54,687 nucleotides of DNA from NCBI GenBank assembly GCA_017626095.1, contig JAGAJL010000049.1, positions 1 through 54,687 on the forward strand, in the 5' to 3' direction. Position numbers and translations under genes: made by a program. Below, piece after piece: positions 30,970 through 48,271 of this stretch. The stretch comes from Lachnospiraceae bacterium (lineage in GTDB: Bacteria > Bacillota > Clostridia > Lachnospirales > Lachnospiraceae). The first letter of the stretch is position 1, and each line of letters starts with the position of its first letter. The notes below the pieces were generated by a model. The model was not told the origin of the DNA, made no database searches, and saw nothing but the letters and a program-made list of their open reading frames with translations.

Positions 30970-31833
30970 ATGAAACAGCCAAGTCATGAAATCATCAAGA
31001 TTGATCCGGAACTGAATATGCGATACAGCATTCTGGAGTTAGCCTGTCCTACCTACAATCCTCCTCATTGGCATGATAGTCTGGAAATTTTATTCATTCA
31101 GAAAGGCTCTCTCCAATCCATTGTCGGTGAAGAGACAGATTATCTTGTCAGTGGCGATTTCTGTATTGTAGACAGGAACGTGGTTCATGCCACTGCCACA
31201 TCGGAAGGCATTTCCTATCTTCTGATTCAGATTCCTTATTTGTTTTTAAAACAATACCTTCCCGATATTGATCAGACCAAACTGCCCTATGTGTGCAAAA
31301 ACAAAGAAAAATCAATTCCGTCTCAAGAAGAAATGACGAATCTTCTTGAAAAGCTGTATGATTTAAACCACGAAAAGAAAAAAGGCTATCAGCTTAGTTA
31401 CTACAGCCTTCTTTTTACCTTTTTGGAAATACTATTCCGCCATTTCTGTCAGGAATTATCTGAAGAAGAAGCGGTACACAGCCAGAAATATATTGACCGG
31501 TTATCCCAAATTGCCTCCTTTATTCAGGAACACTATCATGAACCGATCACTTTGCAGCAGGGTGCCGATTTACTTTCATTAAATCCGGAATATTTTTCCC
31601 GTTTCTTTAAAAAATATATGGGCGTTACCTTTATGGATTACGTATATGCAATCCGCCTAAAGGCAGCCGCCCATGAAATCATAAGTTCCGATTTGACCAT
31701 TCAATCGATTATGGAAAAAAATGGGTTTACCAATCCAAAATATTTTAACAGGATTTTCTTCGAGCAATACGGAATGACACCCTTGGCTTTTCGAAAGACC
31801 CTGCGTACAAATAATGCCTTAAAGCAACAATAA
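30970..31833 (+). CDS. AraC-family transcriptional regulator
   Basis: 287 residues. An N-terminal cupin sensor (PPHWHDSLEILFIQKG, GDFCIVDRNVVHA) is followed by two helix-turn-helix motifs (about 185-280) with the family signature KYFNRIFFEQYGMTPLAFRK. AGGGAG precedes the ATG. Its 3' end overlaps the 3' end of the facing MATE gene by 89 bp. The target genes are unknown. Confidence 0.92.
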   Translation: MKQPSHEIIKIDPELNMRYSILELACPTYNPPHWHDSLEILFIQKGSLQSIVGEETDYLVSGDFCIVDRNVVHATATSEGISYLLIQIPYLFLKQYLPDIDQTKLPYVCKNKEKSIPSQEEMTNLLEKLYDLNHEKKKGYQLSYYSLLFTFLEILFRHFCQELSEEEAVHSQKYIDRLSQIASFIQEHYHEPITLQQGADLLSLNPEYFSRFFKKYMGVTFMDYVYAIRLKAAAHEIISSDLTIQSIMEKNGFTNPKYFNRIFFEQYGMTPLAFRKTLRTNNALKQQ

Positions 31834-33154
31834 CCGGAATGCAGCAGATAATCCAGGAAATGGGTTCGCAATAGCAAACTGCCATATATCCGAATCGTTC
31901 TACGAAAAAGGCAACAGCAATCACTTTTCCCGCCATTTCCAGGAAACTTGCAAACAACGTGAAACCGTTGTGGGAAATTCCCTGAAGTACATTTCGAAAC
32001 AGACACAATGCAGAAAGTGCATAATAATAAGGCAGATTAATACGCAGATATCGGACTGCTGTCCTGATAATTTCTCCATCCGCAGTACCGGTCAGCGCCC
32101 GCACAAGAATGCTGCCAAATGAATAGACAATGACAATGGATAACGTACTCCATACAAATAAAATGATACAACCAATTCGGACGCCCTCTTTAATCCGCTC
32201 ATTCTTTCCGGCCCCATAATTCTGACTGGTAAAGGTTGCCATCGCTCCCGCCACCGTTGATACCGGCATCATAAGCAGCTCGGAAATCTTTCTTGCCGTA
32301 ATATGAGCTGCTACAATTCCATTTCCAAGTCCGTTAATACCAATCTGTAAAATCAAAGTTCCGATATTGATAATCGTATACATAAAAGCCATGGAACTGC
32401 CATAAGAAAGCAGTTTTTTATAGTATATGCCGGGAATTGCAAAATCTTCTTTACAAGGGATCAATTCACGACAGTATACGTTTATATAAACAAAGCAAAG
32501 TGTTGCTGAGATAGCCTGTGCTAACACAGTGGCATAAGCTGCGCCCGCAATTCCAAGCCCAAATCCTTTGATAAACAGGATATCCAGAAAAATATTCAAA
32601 AATGAGGAAATGGTCAGAAAAAGCAGAGGTGTCTTACTGTTTCCGACAGCCCGAAGCACGGATGACAACAAATTATAGGCGACATTGACTATTAATCCGA
32701 GTGTAATAATCAAAATATAATCATACGCATCCGCAAACAAAGAATCCGACACATGAATTGCCCTCATAATCTGTTTCATAAATACGGTACTAAACACAGT
32801 CAGGATGACTGCTACCAAAAAAGCCAGCTCAACAGATGCCGCAATTCCCTTTTTTAAGCTTTTTTTATCATCGCTTCCAAAGTACTGGGAAAGTAAAATG
32901 GAAAATCCACTGGTCAGTCCAAAGCAAAATACCGTTAACAGGCTGTAAATGGTGCTGACAGAACCAACCGCCGAAAGTGCATGATCTCCCAGAATATGTC
33001 CGACAATGGCAGTATCTGCCAGATTATAAAACTGTTGAAATAAATTACTTAAAAACAATGGGATTGCAAAAAACAAAATAGCTTTTAGTACAGAACCCTT
33101 TGTCATATCTATCTGTATATTCTTTTTTTCCATCATTCTTTTTGCTGTTCTCAT
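31745..33154 (-). CDS. MATE-family multidrug/Na+ antiporter
   Basis: 469 residues with 12 predicted membrane helices and MATE motifs (IPLFLSNLFQQFYNLADTAIVG, GLTSGFSILLSQYFG). It exports cationic drugs or metabolites using an ion gradient. AAGGAAG supports the ATG at 33154; 58 upstream in-frame codons are not protein-like. The last 29 codons are antisense to the end of araC. The gene is divergent from blaI, so its promoter lies close to the BlaI operator and may be affected by it. Confidence 0.9.
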   Translation of the reverse strand: MRTAKRMMEKKNIQIDMTKGSVLKAILFFAIPLFLSNLFQQFYNLADTAIVGHILGDHALSAVGSVSTIYSLLTVFCFGLTSGFSILLSQYFGSDDKKSLKKGIAASVELAFLVAVILTVFSTVFMKQIMRAIHVSDSLFADAYDYILIITLGLIVNVAYNLLSSVLRAVGNSKTPLLFLTISSFLNIFLDILFIKGFGLGIAGAAYATVLAQAISATLCFVYINVYCRELIPCKEDFAIPGIYYKKLLSYGSSMAFMYTIINIGTLILQIGINGLGNGIVAAHITARKISELLMMPVSTVAGAMATFTSQNYGAGKNERIKEGVRIGCIILFVWSTLSIVIVYSFGSILVRALTGTADGEIIRTAVRYLRINLPYYYALSALCLFRNVLQGISHNGFTLFASFLEMAGKVIAVAFFVERFGYMAVCYCEPISWIICCIPVIVALRHYLYAGSFEKPRVSFRIARRKSC

Positions 33155-33254: not shown

Positions 33255-33302
33255 TTGACAAACTCGTAAATAATCGTTATACTGTCTTTATTACATTTGT
33301 AA
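33255..33302 (+). promoter_or_regulatory. blaI promoter with BlaI-type operator
   Basis: TTGACA (33255-33260) and TATACT (33278-33283) are 17 bp apart. TTACATTTGTAA (33291-33302), the known BlaI/MecI operator dyad, lies at the expected transcription start. About 100 bp of leader separate it from blaI. This is a textbook autoregulated arrangement. Confidence 0.85.
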
Positions 33303-33405
33303 GAATTAGTGTCGATTTCAAAGGGCAACTAATTGCGAGATTATAAAATGCAAAGCAATCCCTAAATATCATAAATAAAAACAAGATATCATAAGGAGAA
33401 TATTC

Positions 33406-33801
33406 ATGAGCCATTTACCACAAATATCCGAAGCCGAATTTGAAGTGATGAAAATTGTATGGAAATATGCCCCCATCAGCACCAATGAAATCACAGAAAA
33501 ACTGCTTCGCACCACTAATTGGAGTCCCAAAACAATACAGACACTCATCAAACGCCTGGTAAATAAAGGTGCTCTTTCTTACGAAAAGCAAAGCCGTATG
33601 TTTGTATATTCTCCCATTATCAAAGAAAGTGAATATATCGGTCAGGAAAGCAATTCTTTTCTGAAGCGATTTTATAACGGCGATATTACCGCCATGCTGT
33701 CTGCATATATAGAAAATGACAAACTGTCTGAAACAGACATAAATGCTCTGCGCTCTCTTCTTTCCAAGAGTTCAAAAAAAGGAGACGATTCTTATGGCTG
33801 A
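33406..33801 (+). CDS. blaI: BlaI/MecI-family repressor
   Basis: 131 residues: a winged helix (about 8-75, ISEAEFEVMKIVWKYAP and NWSPKTIQTLIKRLVNKGAL) and a C-terminal dimerisation region (SFLKRFYNGDITAMLSAYIEND) of the kind cleaved on induction. It represses transcription until BlaR1 signals. The stop overlaps the blaR1 start by 8 bp. No beta-lactamase or PBP2a gene is present, so the regulated target differs from the classic systems. Confidence 0.93.
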   Translation: MSHLPQISEAEFEVMKIVWKYAPISTNEITEKLLRTTNWSPKTIQTLIKRLVNKGALSYEKQSRMFVYSPIIKESEYIGQESNSFLKRFYNGDITAMLSAYIENDKLSETDINALRSLLSKSSKKGDDSYG

Positions 33802-35608
33802 TTTTATGATGCGCTTTTTTATAAGCAACTTACCTATCAGTGGTATCATCTGCATTCTTTTGATTGCCAAACGATCCTTCAAAAGCATGCTGTCTGCTCG
33901 CATGCAGTATCACCTATGGTTTTTGTTACCCGGACTGTTAATCGTTCCGTTTTTGCCCTTCCACCCGGTTAGTTATACACAACTTTTCTCATGGCTTGCC
34001 CGTCTGGGAAATACTTCCGCTTCTCATACGGATATTGGAGCAAATCATGTAATGGATACCGATTTATCTGGCACCACAAATTGGATTAATGACTTTGCCC
34101 TTTCTGTAAACAGCAAAACTCCTTCCTTTACCGGATATATTTTGTTTGCTATATGGATTGTTGGAATGTTTGTGGTGATTCTATTGGCAATCAAATCTGC
34201 TCTTCGTTTATGTAGCATAAGGAAATCTGCTCTTCCCCTTCAAAATCCGGAGGTTCGCAGACTGTACAACAACTGTCTGGATGAGTTGAAAATTACCAGG
34301 ATTATTCCTATATACAGTACTGCTTATTTACGTTCCCCTATTATGGTCGGATTTTTGAATCCACAGATTTATCTGCCAATTCATTTAATCTCAGACTATC
34401 AGGAAACTGAAATACGCTACATACTGTTGCACGAACTGCAACACTACAGACACCACGATGCCATTGCAGGCTTCTTCATGAACCTTACAGGTATGCTTTA
34501 TTGGTTTAATCCCTTTATCTGGTTTGCGCTCGATGAAATGCGTAATGACAGGGAAATAGCCTGTGACACTTCTGTCCTGAAAATGTTAGATGAAAACGAT
34601 TATGCTGATTATGGAAATACACTGATTAACTTTATCGAAAAAGTTTCCTTTTCTCCTTTTTTGTCTGCTGCCGGCCTTAGTGGAAACAAGAAACAAATAA
34701 AACGCCGCATTATCAATATCGCTTCTTATGAAAAACCAACTTTTTATAGGAAATTAAAAGGCATGACGGTATTTATCCTGACGATTGCTCTCATTCTGGG
34801 ACTGGCACCTTGTATTTCCACATATGCAGCGGATGAAAGTCAATACCACTGGAATACTTCAATAGAAAACATTTCTTATGCAGATTTCTCTGAATACTTT
34901 GGAGCATATGAAGGTAGCTTTGTTTTATATGATTTAAGAAATGATACCTGGAGTATACACGATTTAGAACATGCCACACTGCGGGTTTCACCGGATTCCA
35001 CTTACAAGATTTATGATGCCTTGTTGGGATTAGAAAAAGGGATTATTACGCCAAAAGATTCCTTTCTTGCATGGGATGGAACAAACTATCCTTTTGAAGC
35101 ATGGAATAATAATCAGACCTTACAGTCTGCGATGAGTTCGTCTGTCAACTGGTATTTCCAATCGATAGACGAACAACTCACATTTGCTGATATTTCCCAA
35201 CATATTCATCAAATTGGATATGGAAATGAAAATGTAAGTAGCAATCTCTCTACATATTGGATGGAATCCTCCTTAAAAATTTCTCCGGTAGAGCAGGTCG
35301 AACTTTTAATAAAACTGCAAAATAATAGTTTGGGATTTTCTACTGAAAATATCAATGCCGTAAAAGATGCCATCTGTCTTTCTACTTCAAATGTCGGAGC
35401 ATTGTACGGCAAAACAGGAACCGGACGTATCGATGGCCAAGATGTAAATGGATGGTTTGTAGGATACGTTGAAACTGCAGATAATACATACTTTTTTGCA
35501 ACCAACATAAAAGCCGATAGCAACGCTACCGGAAGCAATGCAAATAAAATAACCATGTCTATTTTGTCTGACATGAATATCTGGCAGTCACATACTACAG
35601 GTATGTGA
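33794..35608 (+). CDS. blaR1: BlaR1/MecR1-family sensor-transducer
   Basis: 604 residues. Four membrane helices frame an M56 metalloprotease with HELQH at about 213-217. A last helix (about 320-340) is followed by an extracellular penicillin-binding domain with the acylated serine motif STYK at about 402-405, an SVN triad and KTGTG at about 540. The domain keeps every motif needed to bind a beta-lactam, so the sensor looks functional. AAAGGAG precedes the ATG, which lies inside the blaI end. Confidence 0.92.
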   Translation: MADFMMRFFISNLPISGIICILLIAKRSFKSMLSARMQYHLWFLLPGLLIVPFLPFHPVSYTQLFSWLARLGNTSASHTDIGANHVMDTDLSGTTNWINDFALSVNSKTPSFTGYILFAIWIVGMFVVILLAIKSALRLCSIRKSALPLQNPEVRRLYNNCLDELKITRIIPIYSTAYLRSPIMVGFLNPQIYLPIHLISDYQETEIRYILLHELQHYRHHDAIAGFFMNLTGMLYWFNPFIWFALDEMRNDREIACDTSVLKMLDENDYADYGNTLINFIEKVSFSPFLSAAGLSGNKKQIKRRIINIASYEKPTFYRKLKGMTVFILTIALILGLAPCISTYAADESQYHWNTSIENISYADFSEYFGAYEGSFVLYDLRNDTWSIHDLEHATLRVSPDSTYKIYDALLGLEKGIITPKDSFLAWDGTNYPFEAWNNNQTLQSAMSSSVNWYFQSIDEQLTFADISQHIHQIGYGNENVSSNLSTYWMESSLKISPVEQVELLIKLQNNSLGFSTENINAVKDAICLSTSNVGALYGKTGTGRIDGQDVNGWFVGYVETADNTYFFATNIKADSNATGSNANKITMSILSDMNIWQSHTTGM

Positions 35609-35661
35609 CTCAGTCTTCCAATGGATATGCCAAGCGGATATGCTTGGCATATCCGCTTGGC
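35587..35661. repeat. Overlapping perfect palindromes at the blaR1 end
   Basis: AGTCACATAC/GTATGTGACT straddles the blaR1 stop. Next come two mutually exclusive perfect hairpins: GGATATGCCAAGC with GCTTGGCATATCC (13 bp), and GCCAAGCGGATATG with CATATCCGCTTGGC (14 bp), which share the middle bases. No T-run follows on either strand. The structures separate the facing 3' ends of blaR1 and the Asp-box gene. Confidence 0.8.
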
Positions 35662-35676
35662 TCGTTGCCCGCAGAA

Positions 35677-37206
35677 TCAATCTAAATTTATTTCCTTAAC
35701 ATAGTCCCACGTTTTTCCATTGTCCTCTGATATATACAGACCATGACAGTAACCATTTTCACCATAATAATCTCCATCTGGTCCCTGTCCGACTTCCATG
35801 TAAAGTTTTCCATCTTTTTCATAGACTTTTTCTGGCATGACAAAAGGATTATAATAAGTTCCATTCGGAAGCTTTGCTTTGGCAGATGGATATTCGACGT
35901 TTTCAAAACTCCTTCCACCATCTTCTGTCCGGTAAAGACTTCCATAAGAGCCACCGCTATAGGTCAAACAGGAGAATCCCGTTTGACCATCCTGTAAAAA
36001 GCTAATCCATTTTGCTCCTCCACCACTGCCCAGATAAGGATCCTGATTAATCATAACCGCACTATTTCCATCATCCGCGGTGGCAACTAACACATAGTAA
36101 CTGCTTCCACATGCCCGGTCAATCGGGATCATCCGATAATCTATTCCATCGGCAGTCTGATAACTGCAATCCGGCTCATGCGACAGATAGTTTTGTATGA
36201 TTTCTTCTGTTAATTCGGAGTTCTCGGTTTCTTCCCTATTTCCGTTTTTATCATCTACATTATTATTTGTATCATCAGTATTTTTTTCTTTTCCTGATAT
36301 GTTTTCCTCATAATCCTCTTCTAATATGTTTTCTACAAAAACATATAAATCATTATAAACATCCGAAATATTATCTTGTGAAAAGTTTTGTATATGTTGA
36401 AGCGGATAATCATATATTTCGTCTTTAAAACGGATAGATATCGTCTGATAAAGTTCTTCATTTCTCTCATATGGAAGCTCTTTCGTAACAGAAAGTAACC
36501 AATTTATAACATCTGAACAAAACCACTCTTTTTCCTCACTACTCGATGAATTTAATGATATAATCAGCGTATAAGACCTTTCTATTCCCTCTCCGATTTG
36601 ACCATACTCATGCGCACGGTTTCTTCCGGAAAAATAAGTATCCGTCAGATAGCGGTAATCCTCCATTTTATAATTATCACTCATCAGCAAATCATTCTTT
36701 ACCAAAAAAGAAAACTCACCTGTATCATAACAATAGAATTCACCATCCCTGCCGGAAAGTTTGATATTACCATAACGTTTTTTCATTTCTGTAGTTAGTT
36801 GTTCCTCACTGTAACCGAAAAAAACATCCGTACCATCATACATAATCTGCAATATCTGATCATCCTGCTCACTTCCCATTAAAGTAATCTGAACCCCTGC
36901 TAATCCCCAGATAATATTCCAATTTTCCTTTCCGAGCATAGCTCCGTCATCATGAATTTCAAAATTTATCTTATTAATCATCTTTTCATCATATCTGACA
37001 AGAATCCTTCCATAAGTGCTGCCAAACGGCCATTCCGGTTCCCCTTTCATCTGTAACGTAAGTTTGCAACGTTCATCCGGTGAAACTTGTATATCAATGT
37101 CTGTATACTTACATTCTGTCACATACCACAAACTTCCTTCCAAGATCAGAATTAAACTTGCAACGATTCCTGTTAGGAGCAAAAACAATTTCACCTTATT
37201 TTTCAT
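35677..37206 (-). CDS. Membrane-anchored protein with Asp-box (BNR) repeats
   Basis: 509 residues. One N-terminal membrane helix (about 7-28) anchors a large extracellular part: an unrecognised region (about 30-290), a Glu/Asn/Asp-rich linker (about 295-325) and a C-terminal beta-rich domain with two Asp-box motifs, YRTEDGGRSFENV and YISEDNGKTWDYV. Asp-boxes occur in sialidases and other beta-propellers; two alone do not show enzymatic activity. It starts 14 bp after the preceding lipoprotein gene, so both probably share the BlaI-type promoter upstream. Confidence 0.7.
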   Translation of the reverse strand: MKNKVKLFLLLTGIVASLILILEGSLWYVTECKYTDIDIQVSPDERCKLTLQMKGEPEWPFGSTYGRILVRYDEKMINKINFEIHDDGAMLGKENWNIIWGLAGVQITLMGSEQDDQILQIMYDGTDVFFGYSEEQLTTEMKKRYGNIKLSGRDGEFYCYDTGEFSFLVKNDLLMSDNYKMEDYRYLTDTYFSGRNRAHEYGQIGEGIERSYTLIISLNSSSSEEKEWFCSDVINWLLSVTKELPYERNEELYQTISIRFKDEIYDYPLQHIQNFSQDNISDVYNDLYVFVENILEEDYEENISGKEKNTDDTNNNVDDKNGNREETENSELTEEIIQNYLSHEPDCSYQTADGIDYRMIPIDRACGSSYYVLVATADDGNSAVMINQDPYLGSGGGAKWISFLQDGQTGFSCLTYSGGSYGSLYRTEDGGRSFENVEYPSAKAKLPNGTYYNPFVMPEKVYEKDGKLYMEVGQGPDGDYYGENGYCHGLYISEDNGKTWDYVKEINLD

Positions 37207-37220
37207 AGGTATTTCCTCTC

Positions 37221-39572
37221 TTATTTTTTACAACGATATTGATAGTCGGGTATATCCACAATCCCATCATTGAGTATTTTATTTCCCAGATACTGAAAGC
37301 TACCATCCTTTGCAAATTGAACTGTCAACTCGTGGGTTATGATTGCATCATCACATATGACCATGTCACAAACTGCATCTACGGTTAGGGTTGTACTACC
37401 ATCTGCGTTTTCTTTTATATCGACAACCTCCGGTACGGAAGTACCAAAAAAAGTAGGTGCATAATTAAAACATCCCAGCCTCACCCATGCGTAGGTTTGT
37501 TTTTCTTCGTCAAATGCGGCATATTTCCGAAGTTTCTCCGCTGTTATCGGAATGTACTCCATAATCAGACTTTCAAATTCCTCTTTAGGAATGCCACCCG
37601 AGGTATTTTTCAAATGAAACTTTTCTCCATATTTCATCTTATACAAATATTCAAACATACCGTTATAATCCAGTTCATCCAAATGATTGGTATCCCAATT
37701 TGAGCACAAAAGATTATTCCCCTGATATCCAAGTTCCTGTACACACTGCTTTGAAAGCTTGCGCAGTTTTTCAGATATCGGCTTGATTCGCATCATACAG
37801 CTTCCATCCATAATCTCACTAACCTCGGGGGGTTCCGGAACACTTAATTCATAACAAAACCATCCTTTTTCAGTATATTTCCACTCTTTGATATCGTAAA
37901 AAGAACTGTAGGACATCATCGGTTTTACATTATCATCCCATACAAAACTTGCACATGCAACACTCATTTTGGTTCCATCAAAGGTAAATTTCATTTTGCC
38001 TAAGCTACCATTATTATGTATTTCGTAAACTATGACAGAACCACTTTTTCCATTCATACATGCTTTTAGAAAGACATCCATTTTCTCATAGTTTTCCATA
38101 TTGGAATATGGCTGTGATGTTGTAACCGGGCACTTTGTTTCTGCCAATTTTTCCTGCATTGCAGATATTGCACGTTCATCTAAAACATCGCTTTCAGACG
38201 TATTCTCGCCGCCATACCATTCATTCCATTCTTCCTCAGTAAGACGCGGCGTATGCCATGTTTCTGCAAAATCGTTTTTGGATGTAATGATATGATTGGA
38301 TACATATTGTACCCTACCATTTTTTAAAGGATGCACTACAACCTCATGTTCATATACTTTTGATATTCCCGCATAAGGAAAGACCACATTTGCATAAAGC
38401 GTAATGGTTCCATCCTCATTGTGTGTATAATCAAAAACTTCCGAATATGGATATTCCGGATATTCCGTTTCATAAAAGCCCCTCGGCTTATACTCATATG
38501 TAGCATCCTCCAGATGATAGATAGTTTTAGCCTGCAACGTTTTGCTGTCAATATTGAAATACGTCATAATCACTTTTTCAAACTCTTCCTTTGGAATCCG
38601 ATAGACAGAACCAACACTCAAATCATCATCGGCAACATAGGGAAGGCTCTTTCCATATACTTTTGGATAGAAAAGATCAAATAAATCATAAAAATTGAGT
38701 TCTCCAAAATCATTTTCATCCCAATCCACCAAAAACATATTGTTCATAGCAAAAGAAACAGGCAGCAGACATTTTCTGTTCAGCTCTCTGCAGCTTTCAT
38801 CCAAAGGCTGAACCCGTAATGCAGCATGTTCTTCTATTCCGCTAAGTGATAGCACAAGCATCTCTTCTGAAAAACAATTTCCCGAAAACATCAGATAACC
38901 TTCTTTTGTGTAGTTAAAAGAATCCGCCTGATAACTTTCCGACGCATTTTTCTGCATACCTCCGTTTTCGTATCTGTAATAATCTCTTACTACATCAACT
39001 TTTCCATCGTTTGTATGCAGATCATAGATAATCAAACCATCCATGTAATTGACTTCTACCATGGTTATTTCTGCCTCTTTTTTTGTGTCCACATTCTCAC
39101 AAAACGCTAAAACAGGCTCTGTCTGTGTCATATCAACCTGATTATCACTATCTACTGCAGAATAACCGTTTTCTCCCAAAAGATTTACAACCTTTTTGGT
39201 TTCCTCTAAATCAAGACTTCTATTTTCCTCAGCCGCCTTTCGAAAGAAATCTACACATAGTTCCATGATTTCTTCCGCTTTTTCGTCTGTCCTTTCTTCT
39301 GTCCTATCTTCAAAAATCTGAATATTATATTCATTTGATTTTTGATCGTTTTCAGAAATGTTTTCTTGAATTTTCTCTTTGCTTTTTGCATTGATATCCA
39401 TATCAGAATCGGCATCAGAATTGACATTTGTTTCTACATTTTCAATAACTGCATCATCTATCACATTACTACGGCATCCTGAAACACCAAACAATATCAT
39501 GATGGAAATTACCATCAATCCTTGCTTTCCAAATTTCGAAATTAGTGCTAGCATCTTTTTTATTATCATCAT
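37221..39572 (-). CDS. Large lipoprotein with two homologous halves
   Basis: 783 residues. The signal peptide ends in the lipobox VSGC (Cys about 33), then comes a long acidic linker. Two homologous segments follow, roughly 250-440 and 620-775. Shared landmarks are (N)NMFLVDWDENDFGELNFYD and NNLLCSNWDTNHLDELDYNG, then IPKEEFEKVIM and IPKEEFESLIM, then HNEDGTITLYANVV and ENADGSTTLTVDAV. I do not recognise a characterised family. AGGAGG precedes the start; two adjacent ATGs are possible. Its promoter carries BlaI-type operators. Confidence 0.72.
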   Translation of the reverse strand: MMIIKKMLALISKFGKQGLMVISIMILFGVSGCRSNVIDDAVIENVETNVNSDADSDMDINAKSKEKIQENISENDQKSNEYNIQIFEDRTEERTDEKAEEIMELCVDFFRKAAEENRSLDLEETKKVVNLLGENGYSAVDSDNQVDMTQTEPVLAFCENVDTKKEAEITMVEVNYMDGLIIYDLHTNDGKVDVVRDYYRYENGGMQKNASESYQADSFNYTKEGYLMFSGNCFSEEMLVLSLSGIEEHAALRVQPLDESCRELNRKCLLPVSFAMNNMFLVDWDENDFGELNFYDLFDLFYPKVYGKSLPYVADDDLSVGSVYRIPKEEFEKVIMTYFNIDSKTLQAKTIYHLEDATYEYKPRGFYETEYPEYPYSEVFDYTHNEDGTITLYANVVFPYAGISKVYEHEVVVHPLKNGRVQYVSNHIITSKNDFAETWHTPRLTEEEWNEWYGGENTSESDVLDERAISAMQEKLAETKCPVTTSQPYSNMENYEKMDVFLKACMNGKSGSVIVYEIHNNGSLGKMKFTFDGTKMSVACASFVWDDNVKPMMSYSSFYDIKEWKYTEKGWFCYELSVPEPPEVSEIMDGSCMMRIKPISEKLRKLSKQCVQELGYQGNNLLCSNWDTNHLDELDYNGMFEYLYKMKYGEKFHLKNTSGGIPKEEFESLIMEYIPITAEKLRKYAAFDEEKQTYAWVRLGCFNYAPTFFGTSVPEVVDIKENADGSTTLTVDAVCDMVICDDAIITHELTVQFAKDGSFQYLGNKILNDGIVDIPDYQYRCKK

Positions 39573-39672
39573 CTTCTTTCCTCCTATCTGCTGCTAAGAA
39601 ACATCCTGTTTATCATTTCTAGTTGAAGCGATTTATATTAAATTACTTGTCCCTTTTGAAATATTGCAATTA

Positions 39673-39803
39673 TTACATTTGTAAGATTTTAGGACGCATC
39701 TTTCTTTTTGAATAATTGATTCTATTACATTTCTTACATTTCACATTTTGCAAAGCTATATTGTTCTTGCTTAAATATTACATATGTAATATTTTTTTGT
39801 CAA
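39673..39803 (-). promoter_or_regulatory. Promoter with BlaI-type operators for the lipoprotein operon
   Basis: On the minus strand TTGACA (39798-39803) and TAATAT (39775-39780) are 17 bp apart. Between them lies a perfect 20 bp palindrome centred on TTACATATGTAA (39778-39789). A second dyad, TTACATTTGTAA (39673-39684), is identical to the one at blaI. A degenerate site, TTACATTTCTTACATTT, lies between them near 39724. This links the operon to BlaI. Confidence 0.82.
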
Positions 39804-44658: not shown

Positions 44659-46011
44659 TCATAAATTGATGTCTTTTGTATAAATTTCACTTACGATTTT
44701 TTCTTTACCCTCATAATCAATTTCCATAACCTTGAATACATTTTCTTCCTCAATCAGATAACCATATACCATGTTTTTACTCAGTCCTTTATAACACAGA
44801 AGACATACAATCTGTCTGTCCTCTTCCTCTACATGTTCTACCCAGTACATCAAAGGAATTCCATCATACTCCAAGTCATAATGATAGAGTAACATATCTT
44901 TTTCCTGTTTATCTGAAAAAAACAGTTTATCTTCTAAATATACGATAGTTGACATACTGGAAGGATAAAAAATGTATTTACTATACCACTCTGTTTGACC
45001 ATCGTTATTTAAATCGGAGCAAAAAACAGTTTTTGTGCTGACTTCATCCTTTAATTCCTCCGGTGTGGCCACAATCTCTTCACCACTGCCCTCCAATACA
45101 AGCCATTCAAAGTAATAGGAGTCCTCCTTAATGAAGCCTTTTTTTCCAAGTTCAGCCGTACTTTTGGCCAGTTTGTCATATCCGTCCTCTACAAAAGCAA
45201 TCTCAGGCACATAGGAAGCTGCTACCTTATTGATATATGCCTTCTCATATAATTCGCCTTTTTCATAGCAGGATAAAATAAAACCGTCCGAACATTTCTT
45301 ATTATAGTCAAAACTCGTTTCTATAAGATAATTCTTATGATCATATTCGACAAAACACAACTCCTGCGTGATTCCTTCATTTTCATAAGTCTTTTTAAAA
45401 CTGCCATCCTTTTGCCCCTGCAAAAATACCCGATGACTGTTTCCCATGGAGCCTCCATCATAAATCCATGCAAACAAATCATCATAACCGTCGTTATCTC
45501 CATCAATCAATAAAAACATGCCGCCATTGGCTGAATCCATACGTTCCTTGCATTCTGCCACATCGGGATTAACCGCATAATTCTCCAATTCTACATCTGT
45601 CACAACTTTATCACATACCTTGGATTGCAGGACTTTATTGATTTCTTCATTTTCCTTTTGAAGCAAATCTCTCAACATTTCCACAAATGAAGCATCAATA
45701 TAGGTTGGCGCATCTAAAACAATGCGCTCTTCTTTTTCATTTTCTATTTCAATATCTTTCTCTTCGTTGTTTTCATCTTCGTCACTTTTATCTTCGCCGT
45801 CTTTTAATTTACCCTTTTCTGTTTCATCGACTGCTAATTCGTCGTTTTCAGTTTCTCCATCTGTTGAATTCGTGTTTTCCAAATCGGCGCTTTCTTCGTT
45901 TTCTGCTGCATACTCTTTTTCCTGTGAAGAAACATCACCATTTTTACCACAACCAACACAAAATACCAGCATTCCCAAGAGCAGCATTATTTTACAAATT
46001 CTTTTTTTCAT
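44659..46011 (-). CDS. Lipoprotein with acidic linker, function unknown
   Basis: About 450 residues from MKKRICKIMLLLGM. The lipobox is CVGC, after which about 75 residues are almost all Glu, Asp, Asn, Lys and Thr. The folded part has Asp-rich repeat-like segments (IDGDNDGYDDLFAW, DLNNDGQTEWY) similar to calcium-binding FG-GAP/dockerin-like loops. The start is chosen over two upstream ATGs because AAGGGG lies about 12 nt before it. It stands alone with its own terminator. Confidence 0.72.
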   Translation of the reverse strand: MKKRICKIMLLLGMLVFCVGCGKNGDVSSQEKEYAAENEESADLENTNSTDGETENDELAVDETEKGKLKDGEDKSDEDENNEEKDIEIENEKEERIVLDAPTYIDASFVEMLRDLLQKENEEINKVLQSKVCDKVVTDVELENYAVNPDVAECKERMDSANGGMFLLIDGDNDGYDDLFAWIYDGGSMGNSHRVFLQGQKDGSFKKTYENEGITQELCFVEYDHKNYLIETSFDYNKKCSDGFILSCYEKGELYEKAYINKVAASYVPEIAFVEDGYDKLAKSTAELGKKGFIKEDSYYFEWLVLEGSGEEIVATPEELKDEVSTKTVFCSDLNNDGQTEWYSKYIFYPSSMSTIVYLEDKLFFSDKQEKDMLLYHYDLEYDGIPLMYWVEHVEEEDRQIVCLLCYKGLSKNMVYGYLIEEENVFKVMEIDYEGKEKIVSEIYTKDINL

Positions 46012-46255
46012 TTGTTTTCGCATCCCCTTTTTCTTTTTTCTGATCATCATTTTCTGCAATCCCTATAGTCTGCCTAATCTATATCCTTACTTTCCTATTC
46101 ACGAAAAAATAGACCGATTATCAACAAACTGTTCGGATAAATAATTTCATATAATATTATAGATGAATTTTTCATAAATTGATATTTTTTTACACGAAAT
46201 GGCATTTTTATTGTATGAAATGAAAAAAACGCTACGAGGCGCCCGGAGCAAAAGG

Positions 46256-47482: not shown

Positions 47483-48271
47483 TTACTTTAATTCAATTAC
47501 AATATCTCCACATTGCCACCTAAACGGTTGAGCAGGCTCCACCTGTTCAAATTCTGCCTCAATCACATAAGCATCCGCGTATTCATCAACTGCGATTTTT
47601 TCTGCTTGATAATCATATCCCCCGATATTACATACAATATCGGGGACATTTTCAGGATTTTTCAATCCGGCAATCGCATATTGGAGCAATCTGTCATCTT
47701 CACGTCGGTCCGTTTCCTTTAATATCCTTACCGACAAGACGGAACCATTATAATAAATCTTTTCTATACCAAATTTCATATCATTCGAAGAATCGTTTTC
47801 ATCTAATGAATCATTTTTATCCGTAAAATCATCCGCATCCTCAAAATCATCTTCAGTCGTAAAATCTTTTGAAAAGAAACTAAACTTGCATTCGGTCAGT
47901 TTCATTTTTCCCAAAAAAGTTTTTTGAAAATAATAGCACTTACTTATATCGGTCGATCCCGTAGTCTCTTTTACTGCTGCCCGGAATATCTTTTCGTCAT
48001 CTTCCATATAGCCTTCAAAGCAAATGCTGTACGAGGTATCCTCATACTCATAAATATAGTATTTTGTACTGCCCGGAACCGGTGCGTTTGAAACCGTTTT
48101 CACATCCACATAATCATCAAAATCTGATTCTCCGACCGCAATCAAATTTTCTTTTTTTAAGCTTTGAAACATCGCTTTTTTCTCTTTTTCATTTGCACCG
48201 CACCCGACAATCAAAACTGTGATTAGACATAGTAGCAAAATAAGAGCTAATTTTCTTATCCGAATCATCAT
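47483..48271 (-). CDS. Lipoprotein, function unknown
   Basis: 262 residues. The signal peptide ends in the lipobox IVGC (Cys about 24). A soluble domain contains a short acidic insert of near-repeats (DDFEDADDFTDKND, SLDENDSSND). I recognise no family. AGGAGG-like text upstream supports the start. It follows the giant TPR gene on the same strand by about 140 bp. Confidence 0.68.
   Translation of the reverse strand: MMIRIRKLALILLLCLITVLIVGCGANEKEKKAMFQSLKKENLIAVGESDFDDYVDVKTVSNAPVPGSTKYYIYEYEDTSYSICFEGYMEDDEKIFRAAVKETTGSTDISKCYYFQKTFLGKMKLTECKFSFFSKDFTTEDDFEDADDFTDKNDSLDENDSSNDMKFGIEKIYYNGSVLSVRILKETDRREDDRLLQYAIAGLKNPENVPDIVCNIGGYDYQAEKIAVDEYADAYVIEAEFEQVEPAQPFRWQCGDIVIELK

Follow-up and report, generated by a model that had tools for sequence, protein, structure and literature searches.

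The mec system (mecI-mecR1-mecA) and the bla system (blaI-blaR1-blaP/Z of Bacillus licheniformis and Staphylococcus aureus) are the closest described relatives of the locus presented here. The operators of mec are TACA/TGTA dyads, and the MecA-type PBP is the cell-wall enzyme behind MRSA. To our knowledge, the effectors reported so far for BlaI/BlaR1 are beta-lactamases and low-affinity PBPs. The present locus shares with mec a sensor-protease and a repressor and, in many relatives, a related MecA-type PBP, usually encoded by the first gene. It differs in that its layout is convergent whereas that of mec is divergent, that DUF6070 and often a membrane protein belong to its gene run, that the window has no PBP, and that the PBPs of two scanned relatives (L087 and L103), with 411 and 467 bits, stay under the NCBIfam MecA/PBP2a cut-off of 750. 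With bla it has in common the BlaI and BlaR1 families, the operator and the alignment of BlaR1 residues 17-597 with the solved BlaR1 8exp (E 1.2e-79), but a beta-lactamase target is absent from the window. The blaCDD-type BlaI/BlaR1 loci of Clostridia are resembled by four sister loci, in which proteins nearest to blaCDD are encoded convergently with blaR1; these four score under the curated cut-offs, and in the window DUF6070 takes their place.

Small BlaI regulons with hypothetical proteins as targets and paired dyads upstream are described for Clostridium thermocellum (PMC8457756); there the motif consists of GACTAT/GTCTAT repeats, and the portion of that report drawn on here names neither a beta-lactamase nor DUF6070. 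IseA/YoeB of Bacillus subtilis differs in its regulator, WalRK, according to the part of the report used (PMC8359209), and showed no sequence relation to DUF6070; its fold match to the C-lobe of DUF6070 lies inside the noise of the match list. The switch presented here is thus of a known type, and its DUF6070 cargo appears to be new to it; the literature searches made returned no published description of this cargo family.

Genes, operators and promoters of the window

The window, i.e. the whole stretch of DNA analysed, comprises the 54,687 nucleotides of contig C19 (JAGAJL010000049.1) from a Lachnospiraceae genome of 2.74 Mb that is 86.6% complete. The host is a gut bacterium. A two-gene lipoprotein operon is convergent to a blaI-blaR1 pair, putative operators flank the pair and head the operon, and the frames of the cassette genes are all open. 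The features are:

31745-33154, minus strand: MATE transporter gene, with the ATG taken at 33154
33255-33283, plus strand: predicted blaI-blaR1 promoter, TTGACA-17-TATACT, 11/12 consensus positions, by consensus match alone
33291-33302, no strand assigned: putative BlaI operator O1, TTACATTTGTAA, exact, immediately behind the -10 box, with the blaI ATG following after 104-115 bp
33406-33801, plus strand: blaI, penicillinase-type repressor, 131 aa (PF03965, 120 bits, cut-off 22.6)
33794-35608, plus strand: blaR1, M56 protease and class D-type penicillin sensor, 604 aa (NF000326 blaR1_generic, 677 bits, cut-off 400)
35677-37206, minus strand: second operon gene, 509 aa, with a membrane anchor at the N-terminus and an Asp-box-like C-terminal part
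37221-39572, minus strand: DUF6070 lipoprotein gene, first in the operon, 783 aa (PF19546, 802 bits)
39673-39684, no strand assigned: putative BlaI operator O2, TTACATTTGTAA, exact, within the lipoprotein-operon leader
39773-39794, no strand assigned: putative BlaI operator O3, 22 bp perfect palindrome with the core TTACATATGTAA at 39778-39789
39775-39803, minus strand: predicted lipoprotein-operon promoter, TTGACA-17-TAATAT, 10/12 consensus positions, by consensus match alone

A preliminary description, made from the DNA letters, had recognized a BlaI/BlaR1 regulon with a lipoprotein operon, and rechecking of operators, motifs and gene content bore this out, with some corrections to the operators. 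The dyad that it put at the blaI start site is O1, which lies 104-115 bp upstream of the start codon at 33406; being directly behind the TTGACA-17-TATACT match, O1 is probably at the blaI transcription start. The promoter scan of this region gave two matches, close to the shuffled mean of 1.7. The unchanged recurrence of the dyad at 39673-39684 proved exact. The palindrome described as 20 bp long and located between the -35 and -10 boxes of the lipoprotein operon is indeed perfect, but it measures 22 bp and overlaps part of the spacer and part of the predicted -10 box.

The genome-wide search that the preliminary description had proposed found five sites of the pattern TTACANNTGTAA in 2.74 Mb, a number to be regarded as chance-like because the reversed control pattern also occurs five times. 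Three of the five lie within these 6.5 kb, against an expectation of 0.012 (Poisson P ~3e-7). The remaining two are an intragenic site (C37:27486) and one (C15:33622) that precedes an unlabelled ORF of 299 aa by 167 bp.

By sequence, repressor and sensor have the features of a BlaI/BlaR1 pair: a winged-helix repressor, a sensor with the M56 HExxH motif and with SxxK, SxN and KTG, and TACA-N2-TGTA operators at the pair's own promoter and at the target promoter. The BlaR1 motifs listed earlier are present (HELQH at 213, STYK at 402, KTGTG at 540), together with SVNW at 450. Of the 46 BlaR1 sequences that reach 570 aa, including that of the window, 44 have STYK as acylation motif, one has STWK and one STFK; HELQH is found in 45 and KTG in all 46. 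Given this conservation and the known behaviour of BlaR1, acylation by a beta-lactam is the expected signal.

Conservation of the operators among relatives

Named genomes, mostly of Lachnospiraceae, were scanned and the best 80 of 152 loci were kept, all of which contain DUF6070 by selection. ORFs were called in all 80 loci and labelled by BLAST after removal of overlapping shorter ORFs, requiring at least 40% identity to the references for BlaR1 and at least 60% for BlaI. BlaR1 was labelled in 52 and BlaI in 43 of these best 80 loci; the latter is an under-count owing to the identity threshold and the removal of overlapping ORFs, through which a blaI of 81% identity was missed in both L058 and L147. 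BlaR1 is merely a fragment of less than 300 aa in L092, L097 and L128. Of the 65 loci, from the same best 80, with at least 4 kb downstream of DUF6070, 46 have a cognate BlaR1 and 19 have none. BlaR1 is opposite in strand to the DUF6070 genes in 46/46, as in the window, where convergence was scored as BlaR1 on the minus strand and the fragment-only L092 and L097 are included.

Operators were sought from -350 to +100 around the module start. With one mismatch allowed, 42 of the 43 BlaR1-bearing DUF6070 loci (from the best 80 of 152) have an operator there, 20 of them exact, compared with 0 to 6 of the same 43 windows for nine control dyads. The blaI upstream regions of relatives have such an operator in 38/43. 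As control genes, unlabelled genes that lie away from the cassette in these loci and encode 150 aa or more were taken; 11/271 have such an operator, although their start windows are less often intergenic because genes inside operons were included. Exact sites number 73 in the 1.30 Mb of the 80 loci (best of 152), against 0-6 for the nine control dyads. This comparison of gene neighbourhoods upholds the proposal that the lipoprotein operon is a BlaI target, and regulation of that operon by BlaI/BlaR1 is very probable.

The tie is not universal. Against membership of DUF6070 in the circuit stand the 19/65 loci without cognate BlaR1 and the operators found in 6 of 18 BlaR1-less modules with at least 4 kb downstream (three exact), where the site persists without the sensor. 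In a family-wide sample, a BlaR1 match was located no more than 15 kb from at least 34 of the 79 DUF6070 clusters, a lower bound because at most three candidates were scored per genome (one position per DUF6070 cluster) and contig ends were ignored. From the BlaR1-less loci and this proportion it follows that DUF6070 can exist outside a BlaR1 circuit. What emerges is a protein family of unknown function that conserved operators appear to tie to the BlaI/BlaR1 switch across many Lachnospiraceae.

The PBP partner and the position beside blaR1

The preliminary description saw neither beta-lactamase nor PBP, which is correct for the window: PF00905 matched only the BlaR1 sensor domain and PF13354 matched nothing there. 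Elsewhere in the host genome class A-like matches reach 27-43 bits, and no MecA_N PBP was matched in this 86.6% complete assembly. For the system as a whole the picture does not hold, since many relatives' operons contain a PBP and sister loci contain class D-like proteins. PBP is present in 29/47 scorable BlaR1 loci (best 80 of 152). A BlaR1 locus was scorable if a PBP was found somewhere in the sequence retrieved for it, or if there was none although at least 2.6 kb lay upstream, which was counted as absence; over all 80 loci, the PBP is encoded by the first module gene in 36 of the 37 that have one. Roseburia inulinivorans DSM 16841 is one of the strains with the PBP-bearing cassette. The first operon gene of G033, G006 and G021 encodes a PBP of 709-749 aa, with MecA_N, PBP_dimer and Transpeptidase domains in G033 and G021 and a MecA_N match in G006. 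Against the Enterococcus PBP4(5) model of NCBIfam the L087 and L103 proteins reach 586 and 612 bits (cut-off 700), and solved relatives of the L087 protein include 7bn9 (a PBP3), PBP5 and PBP2a. As these two fall under the curated cut-offs, the cassette PBPs are best called relatives of PBP5 and PBP2a rather than MecA; by analogy with their family they would be low-affinity PBPs.

The position convergent with blaR1 was also examined from the side of the sensor. The family-wide search gave 19 BlaR1 matches of 58% identity or more. Within 15 kb, 13 of them have DUF6070 and six do not (contig ends ignored), and eight have a MecA_N PBP; both are near six of the 19 and neither is near four. Ten BlaR1 regions (L246-L255) were inspected, and in four of them (L249, L250, L253 and L254) a class D beta-lactamase-like protein is encoded convergently with blaR1, preceded by operator or one-mismatch sites. 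These four proteins have 296-345 aa, a length at which no M56 domain is expected, and each has SxFK and KTG; their best model is blaCDD (223-273 bits, cut-off 600), and the general class D model gives 165-186 bits (cut-off 250). L251 has a MecA-related PBP alone and L255 has DUF6070 about 8.5 kb away; in L246, L247, L248 and L252 no effector of the PBP, beta-lactamase or DUF6070 kinds was recognized. The convergent position is thus often an effector slot: some loci have a beta-lactamase-like protein there, others a PBP, and others DUF6070, accompanied by a PBP or not. This is the main reason for reading DUF6070 as a beta-lactam effector.

With relatives' operons often containing a PBP related to MecA and PBP5, and sister loci containing class D-like proteins, we consider it fairly probable that the window holds a BlaI/BlaR1 circuit with DUF6070 envelope cargo and so represents a PBP-less version of a mec-like cassette that is frequent among Lachnospiraceae. 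This fits better than the separate, undescribed response suggested earlier; of that earlier interpretation the inferred BlaI target stands, through the conserved operators, and the absence of beta-lactamase and PBP has to be confined to the window. More tentatively, and with less than even expectation, DUF6070 may represent a new class of non-enzymatic beta-lactam effectors. Induced through BlaR1, these would shield or assist the wall machinery, protect cells that have neither a beta-lactamase nor a replacement PBP, and form the core of a cassette to which PBPs are added and from which they are lost.

A relic is a less likely explanation, in which the operon was left behind after loss of the PBP from a mec-like cassette and the lipoproteins alone are no longer useful. 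It draws on the BlaR1 nearest to that of the window, which belongs to a PBP-bearing locus (L104, Hominifimenecus), and on the tree of 51 BlaR1 (48 distinct rows, as some genomes were entered twice: G033=L087, G005=L138, G002=L147), on which PBP presence takes 15 changes, at least seven of them forced by supported branches, and clusters no more than shuffled labels do. By this tree the PBP comes and goes in the cassette. The open frames and the three exact operators of the window speak against decay, and operators within one mismatch are kept in both forms (21/22 with PBP, 21/21 without), those of PBP-less cassettes being at least as good (exact in 14/21, compared with 6/22). Moreover, G002 and G005, two further genomes from the same genus as the window (93% and 99% complete), in which MecA_N has no match genome-wide, retain the cassette with blaI and operators, and the PBP-less versions are long and intact (1195 and 1240 aa).

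DUF6070 proteins, proposed mechanism and remaining alternatives

The 783-aa lipoprotein was described earlier as having two homologous halves, and this holds: behind a VSGC lipobox, PF19546 (DUF6070) matches over two stretches (cut-off 27 bits), and the two domains are 23% identical. In many relatives they are separate proteins encoded by separate genes. No sequence relative of DUF6070 was found in the PDB at E <= 10, and Foldseek gave no fold match at E <= 0.001. The 509-aa product of the second gene does have the membrane anchor ascribed to it; its Asp-box character is weak, the BNR score being 17.3 bits (cut-off 27). Its first ~126 aa are ~35% identical to the products of genes in the same place in other cassettes and the remainder is mostly different, except that the L123 counterpart matches along the full length. 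The AlphaFold model of this protein is of low confidence. Whether linked to the switch or not, DUF6070 occurs in 72 of the 397 family genomes sampled, and none of the plasmid records contained it.

Following the mec/bla pathway, a beta-lactam would acylate Ser402 of BlaR1, the M56 domain would then be activated, and BlaI would leave O1-O3, which would derepress both blaIR and the lipoprotein operon. Less certainly, the lipoproteins may then be located on the outer side of the membrane, where they would guard wall synthesis during blockage of the native PBPs. They might support a transpeptidase (the extra PBP where there is one, a native PBP in the window) or they might restrain autolysis; neither is preferred. 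Most likely, the operon is a beta-lactam-induced envelope-protection operon. The company in which the genes are found makes a protective role in the envelope a reasonable expectation. The lipoproteins probably belong to a response to penicillins that is widespread and has received little study. If they protect alone, common gut bacteria would have a type of beta-lactam tolerance that has been overlooked.

DUF6070 could instead belong to the sensing arm, its lipoproteins binding wall fragments or beta-lactams and tuning BlaR1 signalling as feedback. S. aureus BlaR1 is not known to need DUF6070-like proteins, and six of the 19 cognate-type BlaR1 mentioned above have none nearby, contig ends ignored. 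These observations make a sensing role improbable, even though DUF6070 adjoins blaIR, has a common operator with it and is present with and without PBP, and even though BlaI of B. licheniformis responds to wall fragments according to the part of the report used (PMC3305447).

Another candidate for the main effector is the MATE transporter divergent from blaI, with O1 in their common intergenic region. MATE is a drug-efflux family and O1 lies 137 bp from its start; such a role is very unlikely, as both promoter-like matches in the intergenic region face blaI and a similar gene lies within 2.5 kb of blaI in 1/43 relatives' loci, at 24% identity. That the dyads are chance AT-rich sequences and the operon is constitutive agrees with the equal genome-wide count of the reversed pattern, but is scarcely credible in view of their clustering and of their conservation in 42/43 relatives against 11/271 control genes.

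Some cassettes have probably moved recently. The PBP genes of the Coprococcus catus and Clostridium fessum loci are 96.6% identical at the DNA level, and that of Blautia glucerasea is 96.3% identical to its counterpart in Lachnospiraceae IMSAGC_005 and 93.6% to that of C. fessum. Such identities across Blautia, Coprococcus and Clostridium fessum labels suggest recent transfer of PBP cassettes among gut commensals. The cassette flanks contain phage-type genes in L078 and a serine recombinase in L091.

The second gene of the convergent operon

An N-terminal anchor domain of roughly 126 aa is common to most of the genes that occupy the place of 35677-37206 (minus strand) in the cassettes compared; the C-terminal parts of these genes mostly differ from one another. 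The protein at locus L123 matches the product of 35677-37206 over its full length (62%); for the proteins at L078, L085 and L106, the Asp-box-like C-terminus is the only part in common with it.

Neighboring genes in the window and in related cassettes

The following genes lie near the cassette in the window:
31745-33154, MATE transporter, adjoining blaI
30970-31833, AraC regulator, near blaI
44659-46059, minus strand, lipoprotein-like protein, near the lipoprotein operon
47483-48271, minus strand, lipoprotein-like protein, near the lipoprotein operon

Distant MATE and AraC family members (approximately 24-25% identity) are also found near the cassette in two other genomes of the genus (G002 and G005; loci L058 and L059). 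The presence of these genes near the cassette in all three genomes may be a coincidence. Phage-type genes (DUF2800, DNA polymerase A) flank the cassette of L078, and McrBC together with a serine recombinase that of L091.

Further predicted operators

A fourth exact operator in the window's own genome (G000:C15:33622 = L066:8623) is followed, 167 bp downstream, by an unlabelled 299-aa ORF. The match is probably due to chance; the ORF is a possible further BlaI target. In some related cassettes, the DUF6070 gene is followed by one for a small, approximately 146-aa membrane protein (L075:11026-11466, and likewise in L082, L083, L086, L089, L091, L094, L096, L104 and L143), often preceded by a predicted exact operator of its own.
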